NCBI GenBank assembly: GCA_021234155.1
Contig: JAJEKV010000071.1
Span: 7,047,054-7,111,053, forward strand
Reading direction: 5' to 3'
Source: Isoetes taiwanensis
Lineage: Eukaryota; Streptophyta; Lycopodiopsida; Isoetales; Isoetaceae
DNA length: 64,000 nt
Shown: positions 15,609 through 49,838 of the stretch, piece by piece
Layout: the number at the start of each line of letters is the position of its first letter
How positions within the stretch are numbered: position 1 is the first letter of the stretch
Position numbers and translations under genes: made by a program
Notes under the pieces: model-generated
Seen by the model: the letters and a program-made list of their open reading frames with translations, nothing else
Databases searched by the model: none
What the model was told of the DNA's origin: nothing

Positions 15609-17960
15609 TCTTATATTATAAAGTTTTAGCCGCATGTCAAGTGAACTCAAACCTAATTTGGATGGTTGAGATCAACTAATCGTGATCCAAGACCGGATCA
15701 ATACACTTTACTCCCACCATCATGATTGGGCCATGCCCCATCGTCCGGGTGAAAGGAAGCTGAAAAGGAAAAGGGAGGAGAAAGGCAAACGAAAGGCAAA
15801 AGGCAATCTAAAAGTGGGAAAAGAAAGAAAGGGCGCTGAAAGGGAAAAGAGCAATTAAAAAAGGAAGGGAAAAATAAAGAAAAAGGACACTACAAAAAAT
15901 GAGAAGATGGAAAGGATGAGGATAGGAGCAAAAGGAAGCTGAAAAGGATGAGGAAAAGGCAGAGAGGAGGAAGGAAAAGAAAAGGAAAAAGAAAAGAAAA
16001 AGGGAAAAAGGAAAAAGAAAGGGAGGATTAGGAGTTTAAAAGGAACATTGGGAAAGGGGAAGAGGAAAAAGGTGGGGAAAAAGGAGAAAAAGGAGAGAAA
16101 AGGGCAAAGGAACGCGAAAAGCACGGTAAAAGGGAAAAGAAATGGCAAAAAGCATAAAAAGAGAAAGGAAAAGAAAAGGGAGAAAAAGAAATGAAAAAAG
16201 GGACAAGACAAAAAAAAGGAGAAGAGGGAAAGGGTGAGGACAGGAGTAAAAGGGAAGGGAAAAGGGATGAGGAAAGGGTAGAGAGAAGGGGAAGGAAAAG
16301 GAAAAGAGAAAAGAGGAAAAGGCAAAAGGAGAGAGGAGGAGGGATGGTAAGCAATGGGAAAGGGGAAGAGGAAAAAAGCTGGGAAAGGAGAAAAAAAAAA
16401 AGAAGGGAAAAAAGGACACTTAAAACAAAAAAGGAAAGCAGATAAAGTGGGGGATAAAAGGATGGAAAGGGAAAAGGGAGGGAGGGGCAAAAGGGGAAAA
16501 GGCCTTAGGGCAAAGAGAAATAAAGGAATGGAAAAAGACATGAGAAAAGAAAGGGAAAAGATAAGAGAGGGAAATGGAAGGGAAAAGGACACGAATAAAG
16601 CGAGAGAAAGGGGTCGAGGATATAAAAAGGGAAGGGAAAAAGGCCATTAGTAAAAAAAAAGAAAGAAAAAGACAAAGGAAAAGGGAAAAAAGGGGAAAGG
16701 GAAGCGTATGGGGATGGAATGGGAGAAAAGAAAAATAAAATAAAGTAACCGAAAAAAAAAAGGAATGTGGAAATGGAGGGTGGGAGGAAGGAAAAGGAAA
16801 TGGAAAATGGAAAGGGGGGAAATGGAAAAGGAAAGTGGAACAAAAGGAAGAAGGAAGGAAGGAAAAGAATGAAAAATGAATGGAAAACCAAGGAAAATGG
16901 AAGGAAAGGAAAGATGGAAAGAAAAAGGAAAGAAAAGGACCCAGGAAAGAAGGAAAAGAAACGGAAAAGAGGAAGAAAGGAAAAAAAAAAGGACCACAAA
17001 GGAGGAAGACCAACACAAGGAAGGACAAGGAGGAAAAAGAAGGAAAAGGAAAGGAAAGGAGGAAAGGAAAGGAAAAAGAAAGAAAAGACCACGGAAAAGG
17101 AACGCACGAACGGAAGGAAAATGAAACGGAGGAAGGAACGGAGGAACGAAAACCCAGACAAAGAAAAATGGAGAAAGAAGGAAGACCTGGCACAAGAAGG
17201 AAAAGGAAAAGGAAAGAAAATGGAACGGAAAGAGGAAAGGGAAAGGAAAAGGAAAACCACAACGGAGGAAGTGGAAGGAAGAAAAGGAAATGGAAATGGA
17301 ATGGAATGGAAAAGGAAGAAAGAAGGAAAAGGTGGAAGGAAACCGGACGGCCGGAAAGGACGGACGGAAATAACCCGATGGACAATGAAGGAAGAATGGA
17401 GGAAGGAGGACGGAGGGATGGACAGGGATGAGCCGAACACGAGCCGGAAATGGAATGGACGGACGAAGGAAGACATGGAAGACCGGAACGGAGGAAGGGA
17501 GGAGGAAAAGATTCAAAGGACCAACAGAATGGATAAAGAGGATGGATCGACGAAAATGAAGAAATGGAAGGAATGGAGTGGATGGAAGGAAGGACGAAGG
17601 AAGGAGTGGAAGGAAAGAAAGGAGGAAAAGGATGGAATGAAAAGGAGCAGTGATGAATGGATCTTAGGGACCTGGATCAGATTAGAAGTCAACATCTCAT
17701 TTATGAAGGACGGATCCCCGGAATGGAAATGGAGGAAGGAATGGATGGAAATGGAATGGAGGAAATGAAATGGACGGAATGGATGGAAAGAAGTGGCCCA
17801 GTGGATAGGACATGGAATGGAGGAGGAAGGATGGATCTTAATGAAAGATTGGATGTAATGGAAGGAATGGAGGGAATGGAATGGATTTAACGGCAGATGG
17901 AATGCCAACTTTAAAGACTGATGAGCCGCCAGAATATGAAAACCATTCTCGGCTGGTCCA
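15609..17960 (+). mobile_element. Helitron-like element with purine tract, 3' end unresolved
   Basis: The 5' end TCTTATATTATAAAGTTTTA, the subterminal word CCTAATTTGGATGGTTGAGA and the later CCACCATCATGATTGG word match the elements at 32279, 34548 and 40723. The interior aligns with the 34548 element for roughly its first 1.1 kb, including identical non-purine markers such as AAAAGGAACATTGGG. Further right the tract becomes GGAAT/GGACGG-rich. No CTAG terminus or hairpin was found downstream, so the given end is simply where purine bias stops. It is probably truncated or its end has decayed. Confidence 0.7.
15757..17890 (+). repeat. Polypurine tract, GGGAAA-type changing to GGAAT-type
   Basis: About 2.1 kb of almost pure A/G on the + strand. 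Left of about 16750 it is built of AAAGGGAAAAGG-like words. From about 16780 T and C appear in GGAATGGA, GGACGGA and GGAAATGG words, giving a pentamer-like texture up to 17890. Open frames here (up to 333 codons) only spell E/K/R/G on one strand and F/P/S/L on the other. Confidence 0.9.
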
Positions 17961-19519
17961 GAACCCGACTGAAAAGCTTCGCCGTATTGTTTCACCCGTT
18001 TTGATCGCTTTCAATACTTAATTAGATTGTGAAACCTGGTATCTCCAGTTTGACGGTCTTCCAAACGGAAATTAAAGGACCTCCCTGTGATCGGTTTCGT
18101 GACCCGATAATGAGAAATGCTGGACCGCTTCAAAATGATTGGTTTTGATCAAAACCATGGATATAAATCGAAATCCCACCTAATTAACGGCGGAAGATAA
18201 CTGATAATGGTTTTGCCGCGAAAACCCTTCATGATGAATCTTATGGTTTATGGTTCAGGCATATGATGTTGATGATGCAGTTTAACGCAAAAAATATCCG
18301 AAAGAACCTTAATTTCAAGATACACGTTGTATGATGCATTGTTCAGTCTTGAGATCCAGTTTATCGATGTCTATAATTAATACCCAATTTAACCTTTCCC
18401 CGCTTTGATGACGTATAAACATAAATCTCATATCGGTTCTCAATATCTCACCAACAACCTCGTTAATCTTTACAAGCAAATGTTTGTCTTATTAATTCTA
18501 CTATTTCTTTGCAAAGACCTTTATGGCGCTATCGTAAACCTTTCGATTCTTTCTTCATGGTTTCAAAATGATCCTCGAGGGAAAATTACCAACGGTCGAA
18601 GAAGAGGGTGTTTTTATGACCCAACATGTCTTTATTTACAAAACCGCGATTTCATTATTGTATATTACTATAGTCAAGCATCCTGTCCTTCTTCTTCTTT
18701 AGACATGGACGAGGAATAATGAATAAACAAGCAAAACATAAACAAGAAATTGCGCGAGGCGTAATAACCCTTCACCGATATGTTGTTAAATTATGATGAA
18801 ATTTTATAGCCAAATGGATAATCATTATTCTTAATTTCTAAATTTTAATACAAATAACATTTATGTAACCCCACCTCAATGCTACTTCACCATAAGTCCA
18901 TTTCCATAATGTCTTCAACACCCTTTCGGCACGTACGCGTCCCCAAAATGAACTGATTAAAACCTGCACGGAAAACCAGCTGATTTTATAACAATTCATT
19001 ATGTCAATAAAACCAGCGGTCTTTGATGGTAAAACAGTCCATAATTTTTTATACTAATTTTAAAATTTTAAACTAGTCGGTAAAATTATCACTTCAGTTT
19101 ATAAAGATGGTTTCACCATACTGATTTTGTAAAATCATTGCCAGTTCATATTTAATTACAATAAATTTCGACAGTATAATGGTTTTTGAAATCACCAATA
19201 GTTTGAAAGATGTTTTAAGATATGTTGATTTTGGTAAACGTTAGTTCACCATACTTAATTATGCCTGGCCTCATCTTTAAATGGTTTCTTTAAAATCATC
19301 ATTAATTTGATGCTTTACATAATGTTTTCACATTATAATTTTAGATCGGCATGTTTTGCTGAAACAAGCATTACATATGTTTTTCAACATAATTTTAATG
19401 TATCAAGTTTTGTTGTTAGTTCAAACTATGTTGGTTTATTTCCTCGTGGCGTTTGTTAATATTTTTTTGCACCTAGTTTTGTACCTATTACACAATTGTC
19501 CCCAGCCCTAACATCATTA
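17961..19519. other. AT-rich spacer, no gene recognised
   Basis: 18405-18719 (+) is an open frame of 104 codons without recognised features. From 18.98 to 19.45 kb the sequence repeats loosely related T-rich phrases (TTTTACCATACTGATTTTG-like, TTCACCATACT). They may be a heavily diverged tandem array. Confidence 0.35.
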
Positions 19520-21313
19520 CTAACTGTAATGTGTCAGCCAAGGTTGAGCCCTGAAATGCTTTGGATGAGAAAAAGCCCTATCCTTCCCTTTATTCTTATC
19601 CCAGATTTCTATTTTTCTTATTTTCATTTCATTTCTATGTTTCCTTTGTTTTCCTTATCCTTTCCCTCTTCCCCTTCCCCTCTGCCCCCGATAACTTTTC
19701 CTTCCCTTTGTTCTTTCTCCACCTTTTCCCCCTCTTTCTCTCTCTTTCTTTGCCCTTTTCCTCCCCCTCTTTCTCTTTTATGTCCTTCTAATCTCTTTTT
19801 TCCATATGTCTTCCTTTCTTCAACCTTTTACTCTTTTCACTCTTTTTCCATGCTCTATTTTTCTTCCTCCCACTCTTTTTCCTCCTTTTGTGTGCCATTT
19901 TCCTTCCATTTTTCTCCCTCCCCCTGCCTATATGCCCTTTTACCTTCCCCTCTTTCCATCTCCCTCAATCTCTTTTCCCCCTCTTCCCCTCTTTTTCCAT
20001 TTCAACTTTTCTCTCCTCTTTTTCCATCTTCCCTTTCCTTTTTCCCACAAATTTCCTCTCTCTTTCCCCCCTCTTTTTCCATTCTATTCTTTCTCTCTAT
20101 GCCCTTTTTCTCCTAATCTTTTCTTTTTCTTTTCCATTTTTCCTGATAAGCCTTTTCCTAATCTTTTCCCTCCTCCCCAGGTAATTTTCCCTTTTCCTTA
20201 ACCCTCTTCCTTTTTCTTTTCCTTTCCTCATGTCCTTTTCTCTTCTTCCTCTCCCTCCATCACTCCCCTGCTTCCCCTCCCCTTTCCCCCCCCTTTTTCC
20301 CCGCTTTTCTCTTGATTTGACTTTTCTTTCGCTTTCCTCCCCCCATGGTCAATCCTTTTCCTCAGACTCTTTCTCCCCTCCTTTTCTTTTCCTTTTCCCT
20401 CCCCTTTTCCATGCATTTATTTTATTCCTCTTATTCTATAACTCCATTTTCCTCCTTTTTCCCCTATCCTTTCTCTGTCTTCTTTTTCTCCCTTTTTCTC
20501 TTCACCACTTCTCCCTTTTCCTCCTCTTTCCTCTTCCCCATGCCCGTCCCCCCTTCTGCTTTCCCCTCTTCTTTTTTCCTTTGTGACTTTTAATCTAGGG
20601 TTCCTCTTTCCTCCCTTTCTCCCTTTCTCCTTTTCTTTCTTTCCTCACTCTTCCCTTTTTCTATGTCCCTTTTCTTTTTCCCCCTCCTCCCATCCTTTTT
20701 CTTGTTCCCCTCTTGTCCCTTCCCTTCCTCTCATCTTTTTCCAACCTTTCACTCTTCCCCTCTTTCTTGATTGCTGCTTCCTTCTCCCTTTCCTCCCTTT
20801 TTTCCCTTTTTCCTGCATGCCATTCTGGTTCCCTTCCTTTTTCCTCTTCCTCAACGCTTTCTCTTTTTTCCCCTTTTCCCATGCTCCTTTCCTTTTCCCA
20901 TGCTTTTTTCTCCCCTTTCCATGCTTTTTTCTCCTTCATTTTCTCCTTTTTTCAACCTTTTTTCCTCTTCTCTTTTTTTTTTCAGTTCTTTCCATTTACC
21001 TTCTTTTCCACTTCACCTCCTCCTTCCCTATGCCATGCTCTTCTTTCCTCTTATCCTCATCTTTTTCTTTTCCTTTTAATTCCTTTTTCCTTTTTCCCTG
21101 TTTTTGCTCTTCACATTCTCTCTCTCTTTCCACTTCCGCTCCTTTTCCCCTTTTCATTTAATTCCCCTTTAAGAGATCAAGCATGACCAATCACAGTTGT
21201 TGCGGTCGTGCAATAAATCTAGGGCCTTCTCGGATGATCCCGTGATGATCTCTGGCCATTCTAAACAGGGGCTCGATGTATCTACGACTTAAATATAACA
21301 TTGAAATACAAGA
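19520..21313 (-). mobile_element. Helitron-like element with purine tract, inverted
   Basis: Read on the minus strand the element begins at 21313 with TCTTGTATTTCAATGTTATA, followed by CATCGAGCCCCTGTTTAGAA, GGCCAGAGATCATC, CCTAGATTTAT and TGTGATTGGTCATG. These are nearly the same words as at 27096-27230. The base before TC is A. At the other end the minus strand shows CATCCAAAGCATTTCAGGGC and TCAACCTTGGCTGACACATT, with the last hairpin and CTAG decayed (about 19520). It is the only purine element in the opposite orientation, and its purine strand is also inverted. Confidence 0.75.
19600..21165 (-). repeat. Polypyrimidine on +, i.e. polypurine tract on the minus strand
   Basis: About 1.55 kb of almost uninterrupted C/T on the + strand (CCCTTTTCC-like words, with occasional CATG). 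The purine strand is therefore the sense strand of the enclosing element. Phe/Pro/Ser/Leu open frames of up to 206 codons here are composition artefacts. Confidence 0.9.
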
Positions 21314-21853: not shown

Positions 21854-22194
21854 TCCTATATTATAATGTTTTAGTGTGTGTCTTGAACATTGCCCTAAAA
21901 TTTTCAACGGCCCGGTTGACCTAAGATTTTGGATTCGTGTGAATTTGTTTAGGGTTCCCGCGGCTTGATCGAGGACCCGGGAGGAGGAGGTAGAGGCGGA
22001 TCTGCGCTTTATCACAATCTTCTAAAGCATGAATGCGTTGGCGGCTAGCTCAGTTTTTGCTTAAAATTAAGCGGTCCGATAGCCCGGTCTTACCATTCTC
22101 CGTCTGATTTTCCTACCTATTCAAGCAAATGAAAAACACGCGTGGTTATGAATTCTTTGCAGGTTAAGATATCACAAGCTCTTCTTTTCTAAGA

Positions 22195-22976
22195 GGCTTA
22201 TCTGCCGCAGATGTTCATGACATGATAGAAGGCATCGGCCGATCTATTGAGATGTTTAAGTAGCTACGCATCCATTTTTTTAAAGATCAGAAATTATTGT
22301 GTCTTTTGGGCAAATCATTAGAGCAAGCAACCTTCCATTACTTTTTACAGGTAAATAACTTCTCAGCTCTTCATATTATTATTTTAAACTCTTCACATGA
22401 TGGAATTAGTCATAAAATTTAGGTTTCTATGCAAAGCTGAAGGTTAATCTATCATATATCAAAGTGTGATCTTCTTATGTCTGCATTTAATAGGCCTAAA
22501 GAAAACAGAAGATAGTCCTCCTTCCGGCACATATCAGAAGAGAGTACAAGCATATGAAGGATCTGTCGATGATTTGCAGGTATGTAAACATGATTGATGA
22601 CCTTCAACTATTGATCTAACTCCATTGCCTAGAGATAAACTCTCGCGTTGTTTCTAAATATATGGTAAGGAAATCATGTGATATCAAATGAAAGCTCAAT
22701 ACTCAACTCTTTGAAACCCAATGACATGACGTAGATCATCACAATTGGAGAATTTATAAACAAGAAATTGTAATTGCAAAATCATGTGTGCACCTTTTCT
22801 TTGAAGCTTTGCCGCACCAACAGGAAAACGAATCTGCAAACAATGTATGGCATCTTCTATTCATAACAGATTCTGGCATAGAAATAGACCCTTAACTTCC
22901 ATGGCCTTTGTTGTAAAAGTTAGCAAAATCAGGCGGGACTTTCTATGCACTTGGAATGGTGTACCTGCATAACAAG
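22195..22976 (+). pseudogene. Exon-like fragments of an unidentified gene inside Helitron
   Basis: Five short open segments fit exon structure on the + strand. They are 22195-22260 (GLSAADVHDMIEGIGRSIEM), 22279-22350 (FKDQKLLCLLGKSLEQATFH, ending CAG|GTAAAT), 22494-22579 (after TTTAATAG, ending TTGCAG|GTATGT, with ..SGTYQKRVQAYEGSVDDLQ), 22807-22844 (..LPHQQENESANN, then GTATGG) and 22920-22976 (LAKSGGTFYALGMVYLHNK, then GTAATC). Segment lengths and splice-like borders argue for captured exons with introns rather than chance frames. I do not recognise the parent gene. The absence of a start and of a continuous frame suggests a non-functional passenger. Transcription from the donor context cannot be judged. 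Confidence 0.5.
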
Positions 22977-24290
22977 GTAATCAGCTCTGTCTAAAAGTAA
23001 AAATTATGGACTATAACAAGCAAGATCCCCATGATGAAGTTCAACAAATCATAGAGAGTCTAGAGATATTTGACATTTCGAGGCAATAGCTAGCGATGAA
23101 ACGTGACCCATAGAATTGTGACCACGAAAATGTCAAAACCGTAAATTGCTTAAAGAAGCAAAGACGTACATGCACAAATGTGCATATTGTAAATTTGTTG
23201 TAAATAGACTGATGTAGAGATGACTGAAGAAAGATAGGAGAGACAGACTTCAGACATTACAATGTGTTTTTCTATATGTGATGATAATTGTCAATAAGAA
23301 CTTCTGTAAATGATAGACTATTGCATATTAATGTGTTGATTATCTATTAGCAAAGAAGTTGCTGATACGAGTATAAGACCCAGCAATAACAACATCAATC
23401 TTCAGTCTAGGCATCTTATCCTGCATAACAACAATCAGCTACCGATACACTTGGAGCACATGAGCTTGCATTATCTATGTATCTATGTTTAGTTAATCTA
23501 AAATAACCAGCTAATAGTCTGACTTCTGTATAGTGCCATAGAATGACACAAATCATATTCCTTTCAGAATTGTGCTTTTGATTATCACACAAAAAACCGA
23601 GGGAGATTCTCGATTGCTGGGTCACCAAAACTTTTTAAAACTCGAGGTATGTTGATTTGCTTACAAAGAAAAAAGATGTTGAATGTTCTTTGTTATTGAT
23701 CTTAACGTTTCCTTGCTATTGATCTTGAATCAGTTGATGAGCTAGAGAAATCAAAGCGAAATGCATACCATCGAGAATGGTATGCAAAGTTCTCAGGACC
23801 AGAATGGAGAGTATGAGAATGAAATTAAATGCATAGCAAAGCACATGTTATGCAGATCAGCCTGCGCACAGAAAAGACACCTTAAAATCGAAGACGTGAT
23901 CTAATGCAACAGAACAGTGACAAACTGGCAAGGACCCATCTCTGCTGCATGCTACAGTTGGTGAGACAGACACCAAAACTCTATGACAATCAAAGGTAGG
24001 TTTTGCCTGGAGCACCTCCTGTTCTTCACATATTGATTTCGGCAATGGTAGAAACTGTATATAAATTTCTTGAAGTTTTTACCCATCTGATCTCAAACAC
24101 AGTTTTTTCTTCTAGGTCCATTTTGGTGCTAATACAATAGTCTTATAGTGCTGTATTGCTGAGGGTTAGGACGACAAATTGCATCAAGGTCTTCATGATA
24201 TAAAGCACTATACAAAAAATTGAAGTCCAAATTGCACATCATTAATGTTGTATGAAGCTTACAATGTTGGAGCCAATAACTGTCTTAGAG

Positions 24291-24319
24291 CCCAACAATG
24301 TTGGGCACCATTACTCTAA
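24291..24319 (+). other. Internal relict Helitron-like 3' terminus
   Basis: CCCAACAATGTTGGG is a perfect stem with a three-base loop, followed by CACCATTACTCTAA. The family's real ends read hairpin, then CACC(A/G)TTACTAG. It therefore looks like a former or bypassed 3' end about 780 bp upstream of the current one. Confidence 0.55.
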
Positions 24320-24619
24320 TCAAAAGAAAGTTAGTCCGAGAAATAGTTATATATTCTGTGAGTGACATGATGTCCCGGGTTTTAACTCATCATTACAACA
24401 CAATAGTGAGCCGCATTTCAACTACCTGTAATTTTATTACCATGTTTAAAATCTAACTCCATCTCCAAGGTAGCCTTACAAGCAAAATTTCAACTCAAAT
24501 TGCATAGATCAAGGTATAACATGGCAAGTTCCCTTCTAATAATATTCTTAAGTTAAGACACAGGGAACCATTGTTAGAACTTTTTAGAGAACAAACACTA
24601 TTGCACATATTGTTTACAA

Positions 24620-24790
24620 CTTTGGTTTATATTATCTACAACTTTGATTAGTGATATAATTTATGATTGTTGACACCCCAATCTAATCATCATGTTGAAA
24701 CCCAATTGGTTTATACCATCTGCAATTTTGATTGATGATATAAACTATAATTGTTGAGGCTCAATCCAATCACCAAACTTTAATTGTCAC
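24620..24790. repeat. Short tandem duplication, period ~95 bp
   Basis: TTGGTTTATA(T/C)(T/C)ATCT.CAA.TTTGATT(A/G)(A/G)TGATATAA occurs at about 24622 and 24707, each followed by ATAATTGTTGA-like and CCAATC words. It is a diverged local duplication in the 3' half of the element. Confidence 0.6.
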
Positions 24791-25094
24791 CACGTATTAC
24801 AATGGATCCAAATTGTTGCATGTGTGAATTTATGGTTGTGGATTTTGTAGTCTTACTTGGTGCAACTTATTGTAAGTTACGTTGCTTTATAGACAACAAA
24901 CTACCTTCAATGTAATTCAAATGCATGATATTGTCAAGTGTTGACCTTCGAGCATTAGATATGCGCTATTACAAAATATGGATCACAAGTGCATGGAACC
25001 GTCACTTGCTTCTACTATTAACAAGCTTTTCTCATTGCCGCCAAAACATTTACAGCTTGAACTTATACTCAGCAACGCTGGGCACCGTTACTAG

Positions 25095-27095: not shown

Positions 27096-29209
27096 TCTTA
27101 TATTATAATGTTATAACGTAAGTGCGTAGTGCATCGAGCCCCTAATTTGAATGGCCGAGATCATCCGGATGCATCCGGCGACCTAGATTTATCATGAACG
27201 ACTTTACCAACACCGTGATTGGTCATCACGCCGATCTCTTAAGGGAAAGGGGTAAATGAAAAGGGGAAAAGGAAAAGAAGTGGAAAGAGAGAATCTGCTA
27301 AGGGCAAAAAGGCATGGGGAAAAGGGAAAAGGGTAAAGGAAAAGGGAAAAAAGAAAAAAAGGGAAAAAAAAAAAGGAAAAAAAGAAAGGGTGGGGAAAAA
27401 AAAAAGGCATGGGAAAAAAAAAAAAGGCAAAAAAGGAAAAGGAAAAAAAAAGGAAAAAAAAAAGGAAAAAAAGGAAAAGGAAGTGGAAAAGAGAATGTGA
27501 AGGGCAAAAAAGGCATGGGGAAAAGGGAAAAAGGGTAAAAGAAAAAAAAAGGAAAAAAAGGAAAGGAAAAAGGGAAAAAGGAAAATAGGAAAAGAAAAGG
27601 GAAAAAAAGGAAAAGGGAAGTGGAAAGAGAGAATGTGAAGGGCAAAAAGGCATGGGGAAAAGGGAAAGGGTAAAAGGAAAAGGGAAAAAAAAAAAGAGAA
27701 AAGAAAAGGAAAAAGAGAAAGGGTGGTGAAAGGAAAAAAGGCATGGGGAAAAGGAAAAAGGGTAAAAGGCATGGGGAAAAGGAAAAGGGAAAAAAGGAAA
27801 AGGTAAAAGAAAAAAAAGGAAAAAAAAGGAAAAGGAAAAAAGAAAAGGGAAAAAAATGAAAAGGGAAGTGGAAAGAGAGAATGTGAAGGGCAAAAAATGC
27901 ATGGGGAAAAGGGAAAAGGGTAAAAAAGGAAAAGGGAAAAAGGGAAAAAAAAAAGGAAAAGGAAAAGGGAAAAGAAAAGGGAAGTGGAAAGAGAGAGATG
28001 AAGGGCAAAAAAAAGGCATGGGGAAAAGGGAAAAAAGGGTAAAAGGAAAAGAGAAAAGGAAAAAAAGGGAAAAGAAAAGGAAAAAGAGAACGAGATTGGT
28101 GAAAGGAAAAAGGCATGGGGAAAAGGTAAAAAGGAAAAGGGAAAAAGAAAAAAAAGGGAAAAAAAAAGGGCAAGAGAGAAAGGGTGGGGAAAAGAGGAAA
28201 ATGGGTATAGAAAATAAGAGAATAAAAACAAATGTGCAAAAGGCATGGAAAAAGGAAAAGGAAAAAGAAAGGAATGGAAAAAGTGCACGGGGAAAAGGAT
28301 CGGCAAAAGGAGGAAAAGCGGAAAAAAAAAAAAAAATCCATCAAGAAAAGGAAAAAAAAAAGGGGAAAGGGAAAGGGAAGGGATTGATGGAGGGAGGGAA
28401 AGAGAAAAAAGGACATGAGGAAAGGAAAAAGAGAAAAGGAAAAGGAAGGGTTGAAAGAAGGGAAAATTGCACGGGAAGAGGGAAAGGGTAGGAAAAGGAG
28501 GAAAAGGAAGCACCCGGAAAAATAGAAAGAAGAAAAGGGTGGGAAAAAAGGGCATGGGAAAAGGGAATAGAAAAAGAAAAAAGAATGGAAAAGGGGGAAG
28601 AGAGAGAGGCAGGGAAAAAGGAAATGAGGAAATGGAAAAGGGAAGAGAAAAAGGAACATGGAAAATGGAAAGAGGGAAAAGGGTGAGGAGATGGAAAAAA
28701 GGAAGGTAAAAAGGGCATGGAAAACGGGAGGGAGAAAGAAAAATGGAAGGGAAAAGGCACACAAAAAAAGGGAGGAAAAGAGTGGGAAAAAAGGAGGAAA
28801 AGAGAAGGGAAAAATAGGCATGGAAAAGGGCGAAAAAGAGTAAAAGGTTGCGAGAAAAAAAGGGAAGACATGAAAAGGGAAAAAAAGAGAAGGAAAAAAA
28901 AAAAAAGAAAAAAGGGAAAGGGGAAAAGGGCAAAGAAAAAGAGAAAGGGAAAAGGTGGAGAAAGGAGCAAAGTGAAGGGGAAAAAAATTATCAGGGGAAC
29001 AGGGAAGGGGAAGGAAAGGGATGGGAAAAACAAGGAAACATGTGAGAAAGAGAAAAGAAAGAAAAGAAAAAACAAAAGTAGAGAAATAAAAAAAATGAAA
29101 TCACGGGATAGAGCAAAAGGGAAAGGGAAAGGGATATGGCTTTTATCATTGCATCCCAAAGCATTTATAGGCTCAACTTATGCCCAAAGAACGCTGGCAC
29201 CATTACTAG
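27096..29209 (+). mobile_element. Helitron with polypurine tract, both ends clear, 2.1 kb
   Basis: The element begins A|TCTTATATTATAATGTTATA at 27096. CATCGAGCCCCTAATTTGAA, GGCCGAGATCATCCGG and CCGTGATTGGTCATC words follow, identical in order to the inverted copy at 21313. After the purine tract it ends with GGCTTTTATCATTGCATCCC, AAAGCATTTATAGGCTCAAC, TTATGCCCAAAGAACGCTGG, CACCATTA and CTAG|T at 29209. Both ends and the A..T target agree with Helitrons. No protein is encoded. Its closest relative in the window is 19520-21313. Confidence 0.85.
27238..29135 (+). repeat. Polypurine tract with repeated 40-bp seed
   Basis: Nearly pure A/G on the + strand. A marked seed (AAGTGGAAAGAGAGAATGTG, then AAGGGCAAAAAGGCATGGGG) recurs at about 27275, 27481, 27619, 27867 and 27982. 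The tract therefore seems to have grown by local duplication of its 5' edge. The reverse-strand open frame of 564 codons (27239-28933) is an artefact of the composition. Confidence 0.9.
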
Positions 29210-34547: not shown

Positions 34548-36798
34548 TCTTTATATTATAAAGTTTTAGCATTAAATGTCATGAATCAAACCCTAATTTG
34601 GATGGTTGAGATCAATTAATTGCATCCGATAAGACATAAGATTTATCAGCAACGACTTCCCACCATCAGTGATTGGCCATGCTCTAATGTGCAAGAGGAA
34701 AGGAAAAGGAAAAGGAGGAGAAAAAGGAAAAAATGAAAGGCAAAAAGGCACGTAAAAAGGGAAAGAAAGAAAGGGAAAAGGAAAGGAAAAAGAGCACGAA
34801 AGCCGCGGAAGGGAAAAATAAAAAAAAATGACACTAGAAAAAAAATGAGAAGATGGAAAGGATGAGGATAGGAGCAAAAAGGAAGTTGAAAAGGGGATGA
34901 GGAAAAGGGTGCAGAGAGGAGGGAAGGGAAAAGGAAAAGGAAAAAAAAAAAGAAAAAGGAAAAAAAGGAAAAAGAAAGGGGGAGGATTATTAGCCCCAAA
35001 AGGAACATTGGGAAAGGGGAAGAGGAAAAAGGTGGGGAAAGGAGAAAAAAAGGAGGAGAAAAGGGCAAAGTGAAACGCAAAAAGGCACGAGTAAAAGGGA
35101 AAAGAAATGGCAAAAAGCACAAAAAAGAGAAAGGAAAAGAAAGGGAGAAAAGAAAGGAAAAAGGGACAGTACAAAAAGGAGAAGAGGGAAAGGGTGAGGA
35201 CAGAGTGATAAAAGGAAGGGAAAAGGGGGATGAGGAAAAGGGGCAAAAAGGGAGAGAAGGAGGGATTAAAAGGACAATGGGAAAGGGGAAGAGGAAAAAG
35301 GTCGGGAAAGGAGAAAAAAGGAAGGAAAAAGGACACGAAACAAAAAGAAAGAGATAAAGGGAGGGGAGAATGGATGGAAAGGGAAAAAGGGAGGGAGGGG
35401 CAAAAGGGAAAAAGGGCATTAAAAAAAGAGGAGGAAGAAAAAGAAGGAGAGAAGCGGAAAAAAAGGAAGAGAGAAAAAAGAGGGAGGAAAGCCGGAAAAG
35501 GAAAAAGAAAAGAACAAAAGACGGAAGAAAGGGAAAGAAAAAGACTACTTAGAAAAAGGGAAGAGGGAAAGGATGGGCAAAAGTTAAGGGGAAGAAATGG
35601 CTCCAAAAGGGGGGAAGAGAAATAAAGGAATGGAAAAAAAAGACATGAGAAAAGAAAGGGAAAAAAGGTAAGGAAAAGGAGGCGAAGAGAGGGAAATGGA
35701 AGGAAAAAGGACTTGTTAATAAAAAGGGAAGAGAGAAAGGGGTGGAGAGGAGGAAAAGGGAAGGGAAAAAAAGGCCATTAGTAAAAAAGAAAGAAAAAGA
35801 CAAAGGAAAAGGAAAAAAAGGGAAAAGGGACACCAAGGGGATGGAATGGGGAGAAAAGAAAATAAAATAAAAGTAAAAAGGAAAAGGGAATGTGAAAATG
35901 GAGGGAAAAAGGGAAAGGGGAGATAGAAAAAGGAAAAAAGCAAGGAGGGGAAAATGGAAAAGGCAAACGTGGAAAAGGGGGAAAAGCAAATGGAAAAAGG
36001 CAAAAGGAGGTAAAATGCGAAAATAGAAAGGGAGGTGAACAAAAAGAAAAGAAAAAAGAAGGGAAAAAAAGGAAAAGGAAGGGGAGGAGGGAAAATGTGA
36101 AGATTGGGGGAAAAGAGGAGAATAAAACAAAGCATGAAAAAATAGAAGAGAAAAGGGACATGACAAAAAAGGGAAGAGGGAAAGGGTGAGGAAAGGGGGA
36201 AACCAAGGAAAATGGACATGGAAAAAGGGAAAGGGAAAGATGGAAAAAGAAAAAGGGAGGGGGGAAGGAAAGAAAAGGGCACTAGAAAGAAGGGAAGACA
36301 GGAAGCTCTTGGGCAAAGGAGGAAAAGGGAAGGGAAAAAAAGGGGAAAAAAAAAAAGGTAGGAGAAGGAAGGGAAAAGGAAAAGGGAAAAGGGAAAGGGG
36401 AAAGGAAAGAAAAACTTAGAAAAAAGGGCCGAGGAAAAGGGGAGAGGGAAATTGGAAAAGAGAGGTGGAAAATCTTGAGGGAAAGGAAAAGGGCAACCAC
36501 AAATTGAGAAAAGGGAAGGGGAAAATAGAAAAGGAAAAATGGGAAGCAAAAATATTTTGAAAAGGGAAATAGGGGAAATGGAATAATGGAAAAAGAAAGG
36601 GGCAAAGGGAAAATAGAAAAAAAAAAAAAATTAGTAGACAAAGGCAAAAGGAAAAGGGAAAAGTAAGGGGAAGTGCGAAATGTGTTCGAATGCTCTTGCT
36701 TATCTAATTTTAAAAACATGAATCCATTTAACAATTGCTCCAGTATATCATTCACAGTTCTTAGATGCCAAAAAGAAGATTTGGGCACCTTTAACTAG
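34548..36798 (+). mobile_element. Helitron with polypurine tract inserted in tRNA array, 2.25 kb
   Basis: Inserted exactly between CATGTTGA and TAATGACATAAGG of the array unit. The uninterrupted junction exists at 37582/37583. The element starts TCTTTATATTATAAAGTTTT and contains CCCTAATTTGGATGGTTGAG and CAGTGATTGGCCATGC. It ends with TTCTTAGATGCCAAAAAGAA, GATTTGGGCACC, TTTAA and CTAG. The stem TGCCAAA/TTTGGGCA precedes the end. There is no target duplication, only the A and T of the target, as Helitrons do. No protein is encoded. Confidence 0.92.
34690..36680 (+). repeat. Polypurine tract
   Basis: About 2 kb of A/G on the element's sense strand. It aligns with 15757-16760 through shared irregular words (for example ATTAGTAAAAAAGAAAGAAA and GAATGGAAAAAGACATGAG-like segments). 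After that point this copy stays GGGAAA-like while the other turns GGAAT-like. Overlapping open frames of up to 337 codons are artefacts. Confidence 0.9.
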
Positions 36799-37840: not shown

Positions 37841-38249
37841 TGTAGGAGCTTGTTCATATTATTTTATAGTCCCTATCACATACGGTCCATTCGATTAATA
37901 TTTAGAGTTTGTCATTCGAAAACGCGAAAGGGAACGGGAAAATATTCTAGAGTTTATGCATAGCCCCCATTAGTGGCACACCAATGCTCGACATTGTTAC
38001 TCATTCACATGTTAATTCTTTCAATTTTTATGATATCAAGTTCAAGCATGGAAGAACATGGTGATTGAGCAAATCTTGTCGCTTTATGCCTTGGCATAAT
38101 CGAAAGGGACTTATTAGAAGAAAAACCGGGGGAAAAGGGATCTTATTGTAGGGAAACCAGGATATTTTTGAGAACCTGGATTATGAGATGCATTTTATTG
38201 AGTTGTATGTGCTTGTCTTATAATATAATGTTTTGATGTGTTGTAGAAA

Positions 38250-38990
38250 AAGCCCTAAAAAAGGAAGAGGAAAAGGGATTGGAAAAAAGACCTAAAACGA
38301 GGGCCATAAGAAGAATGGAAATTGGAAGAGTATTGGGCCTAAAAGCGGTCTCTTGAGGAAATACTTCCCCACCCATTCGTTGAGCTACATTGTATTCTCC
38401 ATCGGGCGGGGAGAAAGCCTCCACGAGGGGTTTGAAAAATGAGGAAAGGTAAAAAGAAAAGGGGGAAAGGGGACCATGAAAAAAAAAAAGGATCTTATGA
38501 AAAGGAAGGGAAAGGAGATTATAGGGGATGGAAAAGGGAAAGAAAAAAAAAAAAGGAAAAGGGAAAGGGAAAATATAGGGAAAGGGATTCTATGGAAGGA
38601 AAAATGAAAGGAAAAATGGAACTTCATGGGAAAAGGAAAGGCTATTGGAAAAGAAAAGAAGGAAAGGGGATGAAAAGCTTGAATGATGGGAAAAGGGAAG
38701 GAAAAATTTCAAACGAGGGTTTTGGAAAAAGTAAAAGGAGGAAGGGAACTCTGGGAAGCTTTGAAAAAAAAAAGAAGAAGGGAAAAAAAAGGGATCAAGA
38801 AAAGGGAAGGAAAGGAGAAATTGAAAAGCTGGGAAAAGGAACGCTCCCGGATCAAAATAAGAAAAGGGAAGGGAAAAGGGAAAAAGGAAAAATTCCACCC
38901 CGAAAAATTTGAGGAATTTCAAAACCGAAGGAAAAAAAAAAGGAAAAGGGAGGGAAGAGGGAAAAGATGGAAAAAGAAATAGGGGAGAAA
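38250..38990 (+). repeat. Polypurine-rich tract, interrupted
   Basis: A/G-rich on the + strand but with more T and C than the other tracts (for example TTATGAAAAGGAAGG and CTTGAATGATGGG). It looks like ordinary sequence invaded by GGGAAA words, or a decayed tract. Confidence 0.7.
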
Positions 38991-38999
38991 TTTCGTTGG

Positions 39000-40500
39000 T
39001 TGTTTTTTGCTTGCATGTATAGAAATGGTAAAAGAAAAATTTTGTTTGAAATTGTATGCGCAAATAAGGTCAAAAAAAAAAGGCATGCTTGCCTTCTAAA
39101 GGGGGAAAGGGTCTTGCCATTCTGGGGAGAACTGAGAAGGGAAAATTTGCCTCAGGATGCTCATGCCACTATAGATGAATTGAGCTCAAAAAGCAAAGGA
39201 GAACTCTTATAGTGAATTTTGATTGTGCTCTTCAAGGGAACTAATAAATTGGCTTTTAGAAAAGCACAAAAAATGGACAAATCAATCGATGAGTATATAA
39301 ACATGGTGTGGGCATTAAGGGGAATCCGATTATGCTTGAATTTGCCCCTCTTCATGGTGTCCATAGGGGATGGAGGCCTCATTTGCATTTGGAATGGAAA
39401 GATGGACACCATGTAAACATGCTAAAAAAGAAAATGAGGGTGCATTAAGGTCTTCTGAAACTTTAGAAAAGAGCTTTGGTGTTCTCCATGAAAAGGGAAA
39501 TTGATATGATAAGATTTTAAACACAAGAAGGTTTGTTTGGGGGATGGTATGCCAATGGAAGGTAAAGAAGGGAAGCAACTTAATTTTTTATATGCATCCG
39601 TTATTCGATCTTATCACGGAAGTTAAAGGCAATGACAATTGACCAAAAGAAAGGGCTTAAGGAAGGCAACTAGAGTGCATATTAGGGAAAGAAAAAAATG
39701 AAGTTGTTAATGGGGATATAAGATCATTCACAATGATAGCATGTGATTGCCAAGATTAGAGGTCAAATGGAGATCCTTTTGGGGCTGAAATTGAAATTGT
39801 TTAAGTTGCCTTTTCAACTTGCATTTGTTTGAAGTTGAGCTTCTTGAGATTGCCATGTATGGACCGGACTCAAACCAACCTAGAGCATTTTGTAGTTGAT
39901 GAAGATTTTATACAAAAATTATTTTTCCTGTCTTTTATGCTTGTGAAATTTCCACACATTTTGGGGGAAATAATTTGAACAATTGTCCGGGTCAATGAAT
40001 TCCGCTAGCACATGCTCAAGGATGTAGGATAATTATAATTCTTTTCTTTTCCATGTTGGTCAATGATGCCTTTTATGGTGTAAAATCCTTTTTACTTTTG
40101 TATTTGTATTCCAAGAAGATCCAAGTGGACAATTCATGTCTTCCCTCCGCAATGGTTTAATATAAGCATCCACGGTAACTTTTCCATTTCTATTAAATAA
40201 TAAATTCTAACGAATAATGAAATGATACAATTTGGCAAATGACAAAAAGGAGGGTTGTTTTCATAATTCCTTTCTAAATGCAGCCCCCAATCCATACTAA
40301 ACTAACTATGTGCAACTATAATCCAAGACACAAACGCGACAAGCCTTGAAAACTAATGAATTGCAACTATTGTAATCTGAGATTCAAATCATATGCAATG
40401 ACAAAACGATTGACAAGCCAAACTAATGAATTGGCAACTATTGTTTTGACTTTATTAGAATTCAAAACACATACACCTTTTTGGCATATAACATATTTTT
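39000..40500. other. Non-tract interior of the atypical insertion, no gene recognised
   Basis: Short open frames (38967-39212 +, 39219-39416 +) give unremarkable translations without motifs. ACTAATGAATTG(G)CAACTATTGT is duplicated at about 40354 and 40423. Confidence 0.4.
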
Positions 40501-40722: not shown

Positions 40723-42210
40723 TCTTATATTATAAAGTTTTAGCGTATGTCATGAATCAAACCCTAATTTAGATAGTTGAGATATTTGGTTACATTCAAG
40801 GCCGAAATTTATCGCAAGTCTTCCCACCACCATGATTGGCTATGCTCTAATCTCTCAAAGAGGAAAGGGAAAAAAAAAAGGCAAAGTGAAAGGCAAAAGG
40901 CATGGGTAAAAGGGAAAGAAGGAAGAGGAAAAAGGAAAGGGAAAATAGCACGGGAAAAGAGAAAGGAAAAGAAAGGGAAAAATGGAAGGAAAAAAGGACA
41001 CTACAAAAAGGAGAAGAGGGAAAGGGCGAGGACAGGAGTAAAAGGGAAGGGAAAAAAGGGAAGAGGAAAAGGGTAGAGAGAAGGGAAGGGAAAAGGAAAA
41101 GGGAAAGGTAAAGGGAAAAAAAGGGGAGAGGAGGTGGGGAAAAAAGGGATGGAGAGAAGGAAAGGGAAGAGGAAAAATAGAAAAGGAGAAAAAGGAAAGG
41201 AAGAAAAGACACGAAAAAAAGGGAGGGAAGAAGGGAGGGAAAAAGGAAAGGGAAAGGAGAAGAAAAAGGGAGGGGGAAGCGGGGAAGGGAAGGAAAAAAA
41301 ACATAGAGAAAACTGAAAGAGGGGTAGGGGGAAAAGAGAAGGAAAAACAAGGAAGAGGGAAAGTGCGGGAAAGGGGAAAAAGGGAAGGTATGGAAAAAAA
41401 GGAAGGGAAAAATAATAAAGGAGAAGGAAAGGGAAGGAGAAAATGCATGAAAATAAAGGGAAGGAGGGTATTGAAAAAAGGAGAAAAAAAAGTGGAAAAA
41501 AAGGATATAGAAAAAGGGAATGAGAGAAGGAAAATGGAGGGGTAGAGGGAGAAATGGGAGAAAAAAATGGTACATGAAAAAGTGGAAGAGAGAAAGGGCT
41601 GAGAAAGGAGGAAAAGGGAAGGGAAAAATGCCATCGGAAAGGGAAAAGGAAAGGGGAAAGAGAAGCGAAGGGAAGGGGAGGGGAGGAGAGGGGATGGAAG
41701 AAAAGGAAAAAAGGGAAAAAAAGGGGATAAAAGGAAAAGGGAAATGTGGAGAAGAAAAAAGAGAATGAAGGAAAGTAAATGGAAAAGGAAGAAAAAAATG
41801 AAAAAAAGGGGTGGAGAAAGGGTGAAAAGGGAAAAGGAAAGGATAAATAGAAATGGGAGAAAAGGGAATGCGAAATTAGGTTAAAAAAAAAAAAAAATAG
41901 GTGAAGAGAAAATCAAAAAGGGAAAAGGGAGATTGTATGGAATAGTGGAAAGAGAAAAAAGATAAAATGAAAAAATAGAACGGGAAAAGGAAAAGAAAAA
42001 AAGAAAAAGCATAGAAAGGAGAAAAAGAAAACATAAAAAGGAAGGGGAAGGGGAAAAGGGAATGGAAAAGGGAATGGAAAAGGAAGTGAAAATGTGGTCA
42101 AATGCTCTTAAAAGAGCATGATTGAAGAACTTGAATTCATTTAGAAAGGTGCCCGTTGTATAGGAAAAAGCCAAAAAGCTAAAGGGAAAATGAGAAGGCT
42201 CCAAAGGAAG
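40723..42210 (+). mobile_element. Helitron with polypurine tract, array-inserted, 3' end decayed
   Basis: It begins TCTTATATTATAAAGTTTTA directly after the array half-site CATGTTGA. The CCCTAATTTAGATAGTTGAG, GGTTACATTCAAGGCCGAAA and CACCACCATGATTGGC words place it with 32279-33717, to which its tract aligns closely. After TTGAATTCATTTAG (about 42141) the expected hairpin and CTAG are replaced by AAAGGTGCCC and purine-like words. The end is therefore uncertain, between about 42210 and 42290. Confidence 0.8.
40855..42100 (+). repeat. Polypurine tract
   Basis: A/G-only on the element's sense strand. Shared marker words with 32405-33600 run throughout (for example GGAGAAAATGCATGAAAATA near 41430 and 32970, and GATTGTATGGAATAGTGGAA near 41931 and 33467). 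This shows inheritance of the whole tract rather than independent slippage. Confidence 0.9.
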
Positions 42211-44223: not shown

Positions 44224-45903
44224 TAAGACCTATAGGGTTGTTTTATGGCCGAGGGTATTTTTCCATCAATCCCTAAATCTAATGGTGTGGATTTGATTGG
44301 CTTAATCGAATGGTAATGATTAAATCTAATGGTGTGTGGATTTGATTGGCTTAATTGATGGTAATGATTTTATTGCAATATTGAAGAAAGAAAAAAGGAG
44401 ATACAAAAAAATGGAAAAGTGAAGGGACAAAAGAAAAGGTATAAAGGGGAAGAGGAAAATAGGGGAAAAATAAATAGATAAAAGGGGGAAGAAGAAAATG
44501 GTGAGGAAAAAAAAGGAAGGGAAAAGGGAAAAAGAAAGGGAAAACAAAGAGGGAGAGAAGAAAGGGCAATGAAGAAAGTTTTAGGAAAGGAGGAAAAGGA
44601 AGGGACAAGGGGTTATAATCATGAAAGGGAAAGGAAAAAGAAAAATGAATGGGAAAGGGAAAAAGGAAGGAAATTTGTGGGCATTTGAAAATTTAAAAAG
44701 GAGATGGCAAAAAGGGAATTGGGAAAAAGTGCTATATATAGGCTTTCTTTTGAGAAAAGGGGAAATCTTGTGCAAACTTGAAAAAGTAAAAAGAAAAAAA
44801 AAAGGAGGTAAACCCGGGAAAGGAAAAAGAAGAAAAGGATGGAGAAAGAGGAAAAGTTGAATATGGAAAAGGTGGCGAAAAGGAAACGAGGACAAATGGA
44901 AATTTAAAAGGGAAAAGGAAAAGAAAAGGCAGAAAAGAAAAAACTTTTCCAAAGGGGGGAGGTTAGGGAAAAAAAAGAAAAATGGGCATGGAAAGGGTTG
45001 AAAAAGAAAGGAATAGAAACACGAGGAAAAATGGGGAAGAGGAAGAGAAAAAAGGGAAAGAACGGTGAGGAGCAAATAAGTGATAGATAAAAAAAGGAAA
45101 AAAAAAGGAGAATGGAGGAAAGGGAAGGAAAAAGGTAGGGGGAAAAAAAAGGGGAAGAGGAAAGGGCCCCTATTTTTTGTCTTCAAAGGGGACAAGGAAA
45201 TGTGGAGAGAAGGGAAGTGATCAAGGCATTCAAAAGATGAAAGAGGAAGAAAACAAAGAATCGCCATTTTACATCTTCGGACCGCAAAGATGCTACATAA
45301 ACTGAGGAAAAGGAGAGAGGGAAATAGGGAAGGGAAGGGTTGAAGGGATTTTTTGCTCGGGAAAAGAGAGAAAAGGGAAAAAGGAAGGAAAAAAGGAAGG
45401 GAAGTTCAAAAAAAAAAGGGGAAATTTGATGAGAAAGAGAAGGGCATGAGCTATCGTGGGAAAGGGAATTTTGCAAAAAACGGGAAGAACTGGGAAAGGA
45501 TAAAGGGAAGGAAAAAAACATTTGACCACATCAAAAAGGGGAAAGGCAAAAAGGATCCCTAGAAGTGGAAAAAAAATTGGAAGGGAATGACTAAAAGGGG
45601 GATAAAAGAAAAGGGGATCCATCAAAAAGCTTAAAACTCAAAAAAATGTACAATGACAAAGGAAAAAGAAAAGTGTGTAGGAAAACATAAAAAATAGGAA
45701 AAGAAAAGGGAAATGCAGAAAAGCAAAAGTGCAATCCCAATGTTGATCCCATACTGGTGCCCAAAATCTCTTATAGCCCAAAGCCGAATTGGGCTTAGTT
45801 TCTATTATTTAAGATTTATAAAAAGGAGCTTTGAACCTTGAACACAAAGAAATAACAATGGTTCCCAACTTATGCACAAAGAACCCTCAAGAAGAATTAC
45901 TAG
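44224..45903 (+). mobile_element. Decayed Helitron with purine tract at the array junction
   Basis: The left flank is CATGTTGA. The first bases (TAAGACCTATAGGGTTGTTT) only loosely resemble the family start. The right end has AACTTATGCACAAAGAACCC, then AAGAATTACTAG, followed by TTT and the array half-site TAATGACATAAGG. Position, 3' words and CTAG support a Helitron whose 5' terminus has decayed. A 51-bp tandem duplication (AAATCTAATGGTGTG, GATTTGATTGGCTTAAT) sits at 44272-44370. Confidence 0.6.
44380..45720 (+). repeat. Polypurine-rich tract with T interruptions
   Basis: A/G-rich on the + strand, with T-containing words such as AATTTGTGGGCATTTG and ATGAGCTATCGTGGG. Less pure than the 27-36 kb tracts. 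The reverse-strand open frame 44581-45267 is an artefact. Confidence 0.8.
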
Positions 45904-46089
45904 TTTTAATGACATAAGGATAACCGAGCAATCGCAAAGTTATAGTGTGAGAAATGAGATGGGTTAATCTTGGTCTTCCAACCATCAAACATCACACAAT
46001 GAGAGAGAACAAATGACTAGCCAAATCCTATTAGGTTCCTAAATATTTCAATGATCTAAGAAGAACAGCAAAAGTATTCCACATGCCCC

Positions 46090-47571: not shown

Positions 47572-47655
47572 GTGCCAAGATAGGTCTAGTGCTTTTTAGA
47601 ATAAAAAGGTTTGGCCTTTTAGGAAAACCCGATGGATTCAATTGGACATGCCAAT
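47572..47655 (+). pseudogene. tRNA-Gly-like remnant, strongly eroded
   Basis: Only GTGCCAAGATAGGTCTAGTG, TTTAGAATA and ATTCAATTGGACATGCCAAT recall the tRNA. It is recognised by its place 35 bp after TTAATTAAGAAGGTATTCAT. Confidence 0.45.
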
Positions 47656-47935
47656 AGCTCATCCCGTGATTTGTTCAACTCTTCCAATTTTATTCTTTGG
47701 TGCAAGAGCATAAAAAGAATTTAATGCATTAAACCATGTTGATAATAATGACAATTGGAAAATCGAGAACCGATTGCACCATAACGTCCGCTGCAAAAAT
47801 GAGATCTGCGGCTCTTGCTCTTCCAACCATCAAACATTCACAATGACCATGGAACAAATGACTAGCCAAATCCTATCCTCCTAAATATTTTAATGATTAG
47901 TAAAATGAAATGGAAGCTTATTTCACATGCCGCCG

Positions 47936-48016
47936 CTTTGCATTTGTAGTGGTTATTGGGCATGACTGGAAATCGAATGTGGGCTTTGCTCACATAGGTT
48001 CAATCCCATCATCCAG
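47936..48016 (+). pseudogene. tRNA-Ser-like remnant
   Basis: GTAGTGGTTATTGGGCATGA, CTGGAAATCGAATGTGGGCT and CACATAGGTTCAATCC are left, with ATCATCCA at the 3' arm. The anticodon loop reads CTGGAAA instead of CTAGAAA. Confidence 0.65.
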
Positions 48017-48448
48017 GGTATTGTTGAAGCTTTTTCATATTATTTTATAGTCCCTAAACATCGCCTTCCATTGATTAATATTTAGAGTTTGTCATAACTT
48101 GTTGTTCACCTCTTGAAGAAGGATAAGTCCTTAATATTCTAGAGTTTATGATAGCCCCATTAGTGGCACACCAATGCTTGAACATTGTCAAAACTCATTC
48201 AGATGGAGAATTCTTTCACCATTTTATGATATCAAGTTCAAGCATGGAAAAACACGATAGATCGGAGCAAATCTTGTTTTTATGCCTTGGAATAATCATT
48301 TGTTTGACCTTATTAGAAGAACAACCATTTACACCTTATAAGACGACCTCATATTTTTTGAGAATTGGATTATGAGATGCATTTGATTGAGTTGGTTGTA
48401 TGTGCTTGTTAATTAAGAAGGTATTCATTTGTATTACGAACCATTTGT

Positions 48449-48545
48449 GCATTGGTGGTCTAGTGGTAGAATAGTACCGGGATACAAAGGCTATATGCCC
48501 AAAGCACTCAACCTTAGTTCGCCAATTCTCTTTAAAAAATGCATC
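48449..48545 (+). pseudogene. tRNA-Gly-like remnant, last of the array
   Basis: The 5' half GCATTGGTGGTCTAGTGGTA, GAATAGTACC is perfect. The 3' half is expanded and scrambled before ATGCATCC. The array ends shortly after (about 48610). Confidence 0.65.
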
Positions 48546-48619
48546 CATGAATGGTTCAACGCCAAAGAAATTTTGTTCTTCGGCTAGGAACCATCATTCA
48601 ATTAAATTGGGATTATGTC

Positions 48620-49838
48620 TATTCTAAAAATCACAGCAGTATAAGTCTTTTATTGACCATTATATTGAATTAACCACACATATACCGGATATGCCCAGTT
48701 CATTTTGGACTAGGAAGGGTTTGCATTTAGTGTTGAACCCAAAAAGGGCATTCAAATAGGGGATTTAGAAGACCCATGAATGAAAGGGGAATGTTGGAAG
48801 GCAAAAAAGTGGTAAAAGGGAAAGGGAAAATTAAAGGACCATGGTTGAGATGGAAAAGCGGAAGATTTATAAGGGGAAATTTTAGAAGGGGCATGGGAAA
48901 AGAGAAAGAGATTGCACAAAAGGGTAGATGAAGTGGTTCAAATGGCATAAAGGGCAAGAGTGCATGGGAAAAGGGTGCATTATAAGGGAAACATAAATGG
49001 GAAAACTAAAAGAGAGGGAAAAGAAAAGGAAGGGAGAAGGATAATGGAAAATCATGAATAAAAAAAGGCTCGGATTCCATAAAGGCATGGAAAGAGAGAA
49101 AGGAAATGGAAAAAGGAAAACGGGAAGGGAAAATAAAAGGGAAAGAAGAAAAGAAAGGAAAGATTTCTAGAACAAAGGGAGAGAAAGGGTGAGGAAATGA
49201 GGAAAAGGAAAGGAAAAGAATGACCAAATAGGGAAGATGAAGAGAATGGAAAAAGGGAAAGAAAAGGGCATGGGAAAAGGCAATTTCATGGAATAGAAAT
49301 TTATAGGGAGAAAGGGGAATTGCCATTTTAGAAAATACAAACAAAGGGAAGAGAAAAGGAATGGGGAAAAACCATACATATAATGTAAAAAAGGGAAGGG
49401 AAAGAAGGCAACCAAAAAGCTATAAGAAAAGAAAATATAGGAAAAAGAGGTGAGAAAAGAAAAGGGAAATTTCATATTCAAACGAAAAAATGAAGAGAAA
49501 AATTTCACGAGAGACATATAAGAACAAAAAGGGTGGGGTTCCCTTTCTAGAAGGAAAGGGAAAGGGAGGGGGAAAGAAACGAGAAAAGTGGTATGGAAAA
49601 AGGGAAAGAGGGAAAGTGTTTGAAAGCAGAAAAAATGGAAGGGAAAGCCAACAAAAAAAGGAAATTTCATGCAAAGACTAACAAAATGAAACATGCATGA
49701 GAAAAGACAAAAGGAAAATATTGAGAAAAAGAGGAAAGTGAAATGGATATAGGAAAAAGAAAAGAGAAAGGAATTGGGCTTTTCTCATTGTGACCCAAAA
49801 CATTTGATTATGCCTTAACTTATCCACCATTACCTAGG
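48620..49838 (+). mobile_element. Decayed purine-tract Helitron at the right edge of the array
   Basis: The 3' part reads GGGCTTTTCTCATTGTGACC, CAAAACATTTGATTATGCCT, TAACTTATCC, ACCATTACCTAG|G. This matches the family 3' end apart from loss of the hairpin. No clear TC start is seen, so the 5' boundary is set where array similarity stops and is uncertain. The following sequence is not array. Confidence 0.55.
48770..49770 (+). repeat. Polypurine-rich tract
   Basis: A/G-rich on the + strand with scattered ATG, TTT and CAT interruptions, similar in texture to 44380-45720. Reverse-strand open frames up to 175 codons are artefacts. Confidence 0.8.

Follow-up and report, generated by a model that had tools for sequence, protein, structure and literature searches.

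Small plant Helitrons of Isoetes taiwanensis carry kilobase purine-rich tracts in one orientation, probably by inheritance

Introduction

Why would a transposable element carry a kilobase-scale purine-rich interior always on the same one of its two strands? This question is raised by a 64,000-nucleotide stretch of the Isoetes taiwanensis genome (hereafter the window), in which nine Helitron-like elements contain such a tract. The window (C1080:7047054-7111053) belongs to a 7.15-Mb contig and lies about 43 kb from its end, in an assembly of 1.66 Gb and 1110 contigs. A preliminary description had noted that the purine strand runs from the TC end to the CTAG end, and had linked this strand lock to replication, transcription or DNA structure. 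Our analysis points to another answer, which we consider likely: Helitrons acquired one purine minisatellite, which passed to all copies in an unchanged orientation while tandem turnover altered its length.

Results

Purine-rich tracts and element ends in the window

The nine elements (E1 to E9; letters denote the subfamilies described below) and one related Helitron are as follows.

E1, 15609..17342, plus strand: subfamily B-like Helitron, TC end at 15609 directly behind a CTAG; tract 15757-17342, plus, purine fraction 0.892
E2, 19506..21313, minus strand: inverted subfamily A element; tract 21155-19640 (19640-21155, minus), purine fraction 0.891
E3, 27096..29209, plus strand: subfamily A, TC end at 27096, CTAG at 29206-29209, then T; tract 27241-29139, plus, purine fraction 0.915
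E4, 32279..33717, plus strand: subfamily B, 3' flank is the tRNA-unit site TAATGACATAAGG, 5' flank differs; tract 32418-33598, plus, purine fraction 0.891
E5, 34548..36798, plus strand: subfamily B, both flanks are the tRNA-unit site GTTGA/TAATGAC; tract 34693-36670, plus, purine fraction 0.896
E6, 38216..39000, plus strand: weak 5' end, then a mosaic stretch, 78% purine; tract 38250-39000, plus, purine fraction 0.779
E7, 40723..42095, plus strand: subfamily B, 5' flank is the tRNA-unit site; tract 40857-42095, plus, purine fraction 0.914
E8, 44383..45905, plus strand: decayed or mosaic, 81.5% purine, 3'-end match, 3' flank is the tRNA-unit site; tract 44383-45720, plus, purine fraction 0.815
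E9, 48780..49834, plus strand: decayed or mosaic, 80.4% purine, 3'-end match by the window-trained model only; tract 48780-49775, plus, purine fraction 0.804
21854..25094, plus strand: related Helitron without purine tract (3241 bp; purine fraction 0.45-0.57 per 250 bp), ending in ACTCAGCAACGCTGGGCACCGTTACTAG followed by T; internal control

Six of the nine stretches contain 89-92% A+G and three contain 78-82%. Because the purine fraction of the background is only 0.43-0.62 per 1 kb (110 sampling windows covering 1-15 kb and 50.5-63 kb), the tracts are not a product of chance. All nine stretches reported earlier are present, but "near-pure" overstates their composition: the longest unbroken purine run in the nine tracts is 74 bp, and three of them fall below 82%. 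In the clean tracts measured in subfamilies A, B and C, the purine fraction is 0.89-0.93. A coding role of the long open frames in the tracts was ruled out; these frames result from composition, as strands almost without T (or A) have few stop codons. In E1, a GGAATGGA-rich continuation reaches about 17880.

A 5'-end model trained on six window ends placed 5' ends at 15609, 27096, 32279, 34551 and 40723 on the plus strand and at 21313 on the minus strand, a circular result as these are its own six ends. A model built from genome copies recovered the five plus-strand ends well (E 1.3e-8 or better) and two further ends weakly, those of E2 (E 0.083) and at 38216 (E 0.23); neither model recognised a 5' end in E8 or E9. 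At the 3' side, the window-trained model identified the ends of E2, E3, E4, E5, E8 and E9, and the genome-copy model those of E3 and E4 only. By reading, the terminus is CTAG followed by T in E3, E5 and E8, TTAG followed by T in E4 and CTAG followed by G in E9; no intact terminal CTAG was read in E2, and the 3' ends of E1, E6 and E7 were not placed. Window 3' ends are often damaged. Wherever a window end can be placed, including that of the inverted E2, the purine strand is the TC-to-CTAG strand, in agreement with the preliminary description.

Helitron identity and subfamilies in genome copies

A 154-bp seed query, taken from the E3 5' flank and reaching about 10 bp into the tract, served to collect genome copies. 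This query gave 1207 loose first-look candidates, the best 40 of which were scored; 39 places were taken with 7 kb each (loci L), the fortieth being the window itself. The 39 loci hold 45 full 5' ends, three of them from elements seen twice in overlapping loci. TC stands at the model start in 41 of the 45, preceded by A in 35, by G in four and by T in two, and the four ends preceded by G each sit behind another CTAG end. The remaining four read A followed by TCTTTATATT, one base upstream. We called a 3' end clean when it had CTAG and matched a reference at 20 or more of 28 positions; 33 elements had such an end, with T as the next base in all 33, and 12 had none. The hairpin GCCCAGC-AAC-GCTGGGC is exact in 19 of the 45 elements and has one-base variants in several more; altered forms occur in L011, L013, L033, L034m4931 and L031p500. 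The hairpin pattern gave no reading in 10 of the 45, and the readings for L043p500 and L035p500 do not come from their own ends.

Clean copies begin, behind an A, with TCTTATATTATAA, and a 5' part of about 140 bp is followed by the tract. The 3' part of subfamily A consists of a short tail, the hairpin GCCCAGCAACGCTGGGC and then ACCATTACTAG followed by T. In subfamily C, the match to the A/B 5' model covers only about 62 bp, and the 3' end is similar (GCCCAGCAAGGCTGGGTACCATTACTAG followed by T). In all three subfamilies, some 140 bp separate the TC end from the start of the tract. That elements insert between A and T without duplicating the target is seen at one site, where the filled GTTGA/TC...CTAG/TAATGAC of E5 can be compared with empty GTTGATAATGAC units. 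Similar ends are carried by two tract-less elements, L012 (4381 bp) and the window Helitron at 21854, and the tract is therefore not needed for having these ends.

Only some 220 bp of the purine elements lie outside the tract. The RepHel domain is abundant elsewhere in the genome (150 scored matches, every one listed being above the cut-off). The elements are small and presumably non-autonomous, and fall into at least three related subfamilies of plant Helitrons, A, B and C. Their identification as Helitrons extends from the window to the genome copies, where the TC start behind A, the 3' hairpin and the CTAG end before T recur.

The subfamily C element in L018 (2223-3954, minus strand) gave 993 loose first-look candidates, and the best 40 places are 97-100% identical in the 5' flank, which suggests that this subfamily has been recently active. 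Four of the 45 5' ends (L014, L016, L026 and L035) lie directly behind the CTAG end of another Helitron, as E1 does behind a CTAG at 15609.

Orientation of the tract relative to the ends

Behind every one of the 39 seed ends, after about 140-160 bp, comes a purine tract on the sense strand of that end. When all tracts of at least 300 bp in the 39 loci and the window were considered, 53 of 55 had a same-sense Helitron end and two had no end nearby (because some loci overlap, two of the 55 intervals represent one and the same piece of DNA). Same-sense ends only were found for 52 of the 53, and the tract in L019 has its own same-sense end and the end of a divergent neighbour. The two end-less tracts also fit this sense, one by a partial 5' match (L042) and the other by the end at 15609.

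Whole-element queries gave a consistent picture among the best 40 candidates scored for each subfamily, the query's own place included. With subfamily A, the match continues across the tract and into the 3' tail at 40 of 40 places; with C, 40 of 40 cross the junction of flank and tract, 39 of them from the first four bases; with B, 30 of 40 span tract and 3' flank and 10 stop short. As these queries contain the tract, they favour collinear copies, and among the places scored no reversed tract was found in the three subfamilies. The genome-wide scan of orientation that the preliminary description called for thus met no exception among the loci examined, and tracts in both orientations, which would have spoken against a strand lock, were not encountered in the copies of A, B and C examined. 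Two tract-only pieces without flank (C1025:10007010-10008171, B query) and a 66-bp divergent 5' end (C1068:9015010, A query) were seen on the opposite strand and were not counted.

Ancestry of the tracts

Tract homology is far above dinucleotide shuffles and the reversed control within subfamily A (z 12.7-57) and within B (z 11.6-62). The window tracts belong to these groups: E2 matches genome A copies with z 20.2 and 12.7, E3 matches L022 with z 49.6, E1 matches E5 with z 38.8, and the E7 tract is nearly the same as that of E4 (z 62.1). Copies within a subfamily, judged by their sequence, clearly share tract ancestry.

Common ancestry also probably extends across subfamilies. A 60-bp unit taken from C, with the core AAAAAGGGAAGAGGGAAAGGGTGAGGA or close to it, matched 10 of 12 non-self tracts so well that no more than 2 of 200 shuffles scored as high, and shared 13-mers exceed the reversed control (27 against 7 for A and C, 12 against 5 for B and C). 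In the C element read, the first 465 bp form a tandem array whose purine content is 95.5-96.8% in each 155 bp, against 88-92% in the remainder, a pattern that would follow from the formation of new purine units by duplication and their later decay. The number of unit words (0-7) bears no strict relation to element length (916-3432 bp) in 33 elements.

An insertion site shared within the window

The window contains an 825-bp tandem unit with a tRNA-Ser(AGA) gene, at approximately 33740-34520, 36800-38210, 40480-40720, 43340-44230 and 45890-48620; we take a second gene in the unit to be tRNA-Gly-like by its resemblance. Long arrays of the unit are found on C1106, C264, C229 and C675 (179 matches from 31 scored candidates). 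Four window elements are flanked by one tRNA-unit site, which stands on either side of E5, 5' of E7 and 3' of E4 and E8; the 5' flank of E4 does not match it. On C1106, B-like 5' ends twice lie 47 bp from tRNA units. E4, E5, E7 and E8 are probably one insertion amplified with the tRNA array, with some rearrangement. Because of this common site, nine is an inflated count.

Mutation spectrum and DNA structure

Among 10 aligned A copies, which differ from the majority by about 1-7% (24-129 changes each), purine-to-pyrimidine changes amount to 52/11466 (0.0045 per site-row) and pyrimidine-to-purine changes to 5/1366 (0.0037), implying an equilibrium purine fraction of 0.45. L010 (tract unaligned, 460 differences) and L036 and L043p4972 (repeats of other rows) had been left out. 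A stricter set of eight copies, also without L013 and L042, gave 43/9934 and 2/1185 and an equilibrium of 0.28. No purine-keeping mutation bias was thus seen in the 10 aligned resident A copies, on few events, and these rates indicate that resident copies drift towards ordinary composition.

In 32 tracts (49,658 bp), 99 G-quadruplex (G4)-type motifs were counted on the sense strand and none on the antisense strand, compared with 72.9 (s.d. 8.0, largest 89) in 50 shuffles. The strand bias of the motifs follows from composition, and their excess over composition is modest.

Consensus quality

Islands of purine filler interrupt otherwise near-identical tRNA-unit copies at 37885-38140 (compared with 37080-37330) and 43655-44240. 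The hairpin differs between copies with the same insertion flanks (L011 versus L028 and L036; L031p500 versus L031p4805), a third C977 copy having aligned poorly outside the element in this flank comparison. CAGCAACGC is changed to CAAAGAACG or similar in L013, L033, L034 and E3, with a similar change in L011. The islands and hairpin changes most likely stem from errors of consensus or base calling in patched regions; gene conversion or true variants could also lie behind them. Complement-type substitution was ruled out as the origin of the filler, as replacements go to A and G generally and not to complements. For genomes other than this one, long-read dropout in GA-rich DNA (PMC9241371) and nanopore repeat miscalls at telomeres (PMC9414165) are reported.

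Other features of the window

A tandem array at 58689-59739 has a 19-bp base unit, CTCCAACATGCCACGTAGG, with higher orders of 38 and 57 bp. Broken pieces of a copia-type retrotransposon (integrase core, reverse transcriptase) lie at 60442-62600.

Discussion

The elements follow a simple plan: a 5' part of about 140 bp, a purine interior of about 0.7-3.2 kb and a short 3' tail with hairpin and CTAG. We read the interior as a degenerate minisatellite of purine-rich units, with one old unit measuring some 60 bp. An ancestral element would have taken up this minisatellite once, in one orientation; all copies would have inherited that orientation, tandem turnover altering tract length, and mobilisation would occur in trans by RepHel genes elsewhere in the genome. 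The single acquisition is inferred and not proven. If it took place, the strand lock is a founder effect and not a sign of strand-specific function; as evidence for function, the strand lock is weak. The step from strand lock to replication, transcription or structure, taken in the preliminary description, is accordingly not borne out, given shared tract ancestry, an insertion site common to several elements and the lack of a purine-keeping bias.

Several observations weigh against this likely history. Between A and B, tract z is only 2.2-6.2 and the reversed control comes near the value observed; shared words hardly exceed the control (11-mers 72 against 68, 18-mers 6 against 5). Tract scores are 471 against 444 reversed for A and C, and 469 against 437 and 296 against 333 for B and C, the last below its control. 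The 60-bp unit test failed in two of the 12 tracts, E2 (16 of 200 shuffles) and E4 (10 of 200), and the 12 tracts are not independent. In a position-anchored comparison, tract starts of B and C did not match A above interior stretches in five of six cases. The mutation spectrum rests on 5 pyrimidine-to-purine events and on low-complexity alignments.

Among the alternatives, a selected tract appears unlikely, although it survives best. The tract would raise rolling-circle yield in a strand-specific manner, either because a sense strand that does not pair with itself avoids false terminator hairpins in the rolling-circle intermediate, or because G-quadruplexes, R-loops or triplexes aid replication or escape from silencing, and purine would be kept in the source lineage by selection and unit turnover. 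The constant strand in three subfamilies fits this proposal, as do the high purine fraction of clean tracts despite strong sequence divergence between subfamilies, the one-sided G4-type motifs with their excess over shuffles, and the 993-1491 loose first-look candidates per subfamily query, which are unconfirmed and possibly overlapping. Avoidance of self-pairing, however, does not favour purine over pyrimidine, and the tract-less L012 and window Helitron have much the same ends. The composition drift of resident copies also speaks against selection, although selection on source elements would not show there.

Separate acquisitions, with each of the three subfamilies taking up a purine-rich minisatellite of its own and one orientation being favoured, seem quite improbable to us. 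The weak tract homology between subfamilies and the short fit of the C 5' flank to the A/B model would be explained, but neither the recurrence of the 60-bp unit in 10 of 12 tracts nor the common distance of tract start from TC end would be expected. Sequencing or assembly artefacts, to which the filler islands and the hairpin differences between copies with shared flanks might point, could account for local islands but are very improbable as the source of the family, given the same tracts on many contigs and the divergence of the aligned A copies.

Many dispersed kilobase purine tracts of set direction would offer material for strand-specific tests of replication, silencing and sequencing. 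They also call for caution in annotation, since their composition leaves long reading frames open, and they may interfere with long-read assembly. If the tract did aid transposition, what lies inside a Helitron would have a part in the mechanism, beyond being cargo; the evidence favours simple inheritance of the minisatellite.

With plant non-autonomous Helitrons, the elements share the TC start behind A, the 3' hairpin, the CTAG end before T and the lack of target duplication, and they differ in their kilobase-scale interior of about 90% purine. Among the titles and abstract openings listed on Helitrons and purine-rich DNA, none mentions a Helitron family with such an interior. Helitrons or Helentrons with central satellite-like tandem arrays are already known (PMC12628747) and have in common with the present elements conserved ends and a central tandem array of variable copy number. 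The same review reports that oyster central arrays run in different directions, whereas the array of the present elements, which is purine-rich, had a single direction wherever it was seen. Head-to-tail neighbours are likewise shared with plant Helitrons amplified in tandem by rolling circle (Xiong et al. 2016, as cited in PMC12628747). Here, in contrast, the upstream neighbour is the tail of a different Helitron, and the arrangement looks like adjacent insertion rather than multimer formation.

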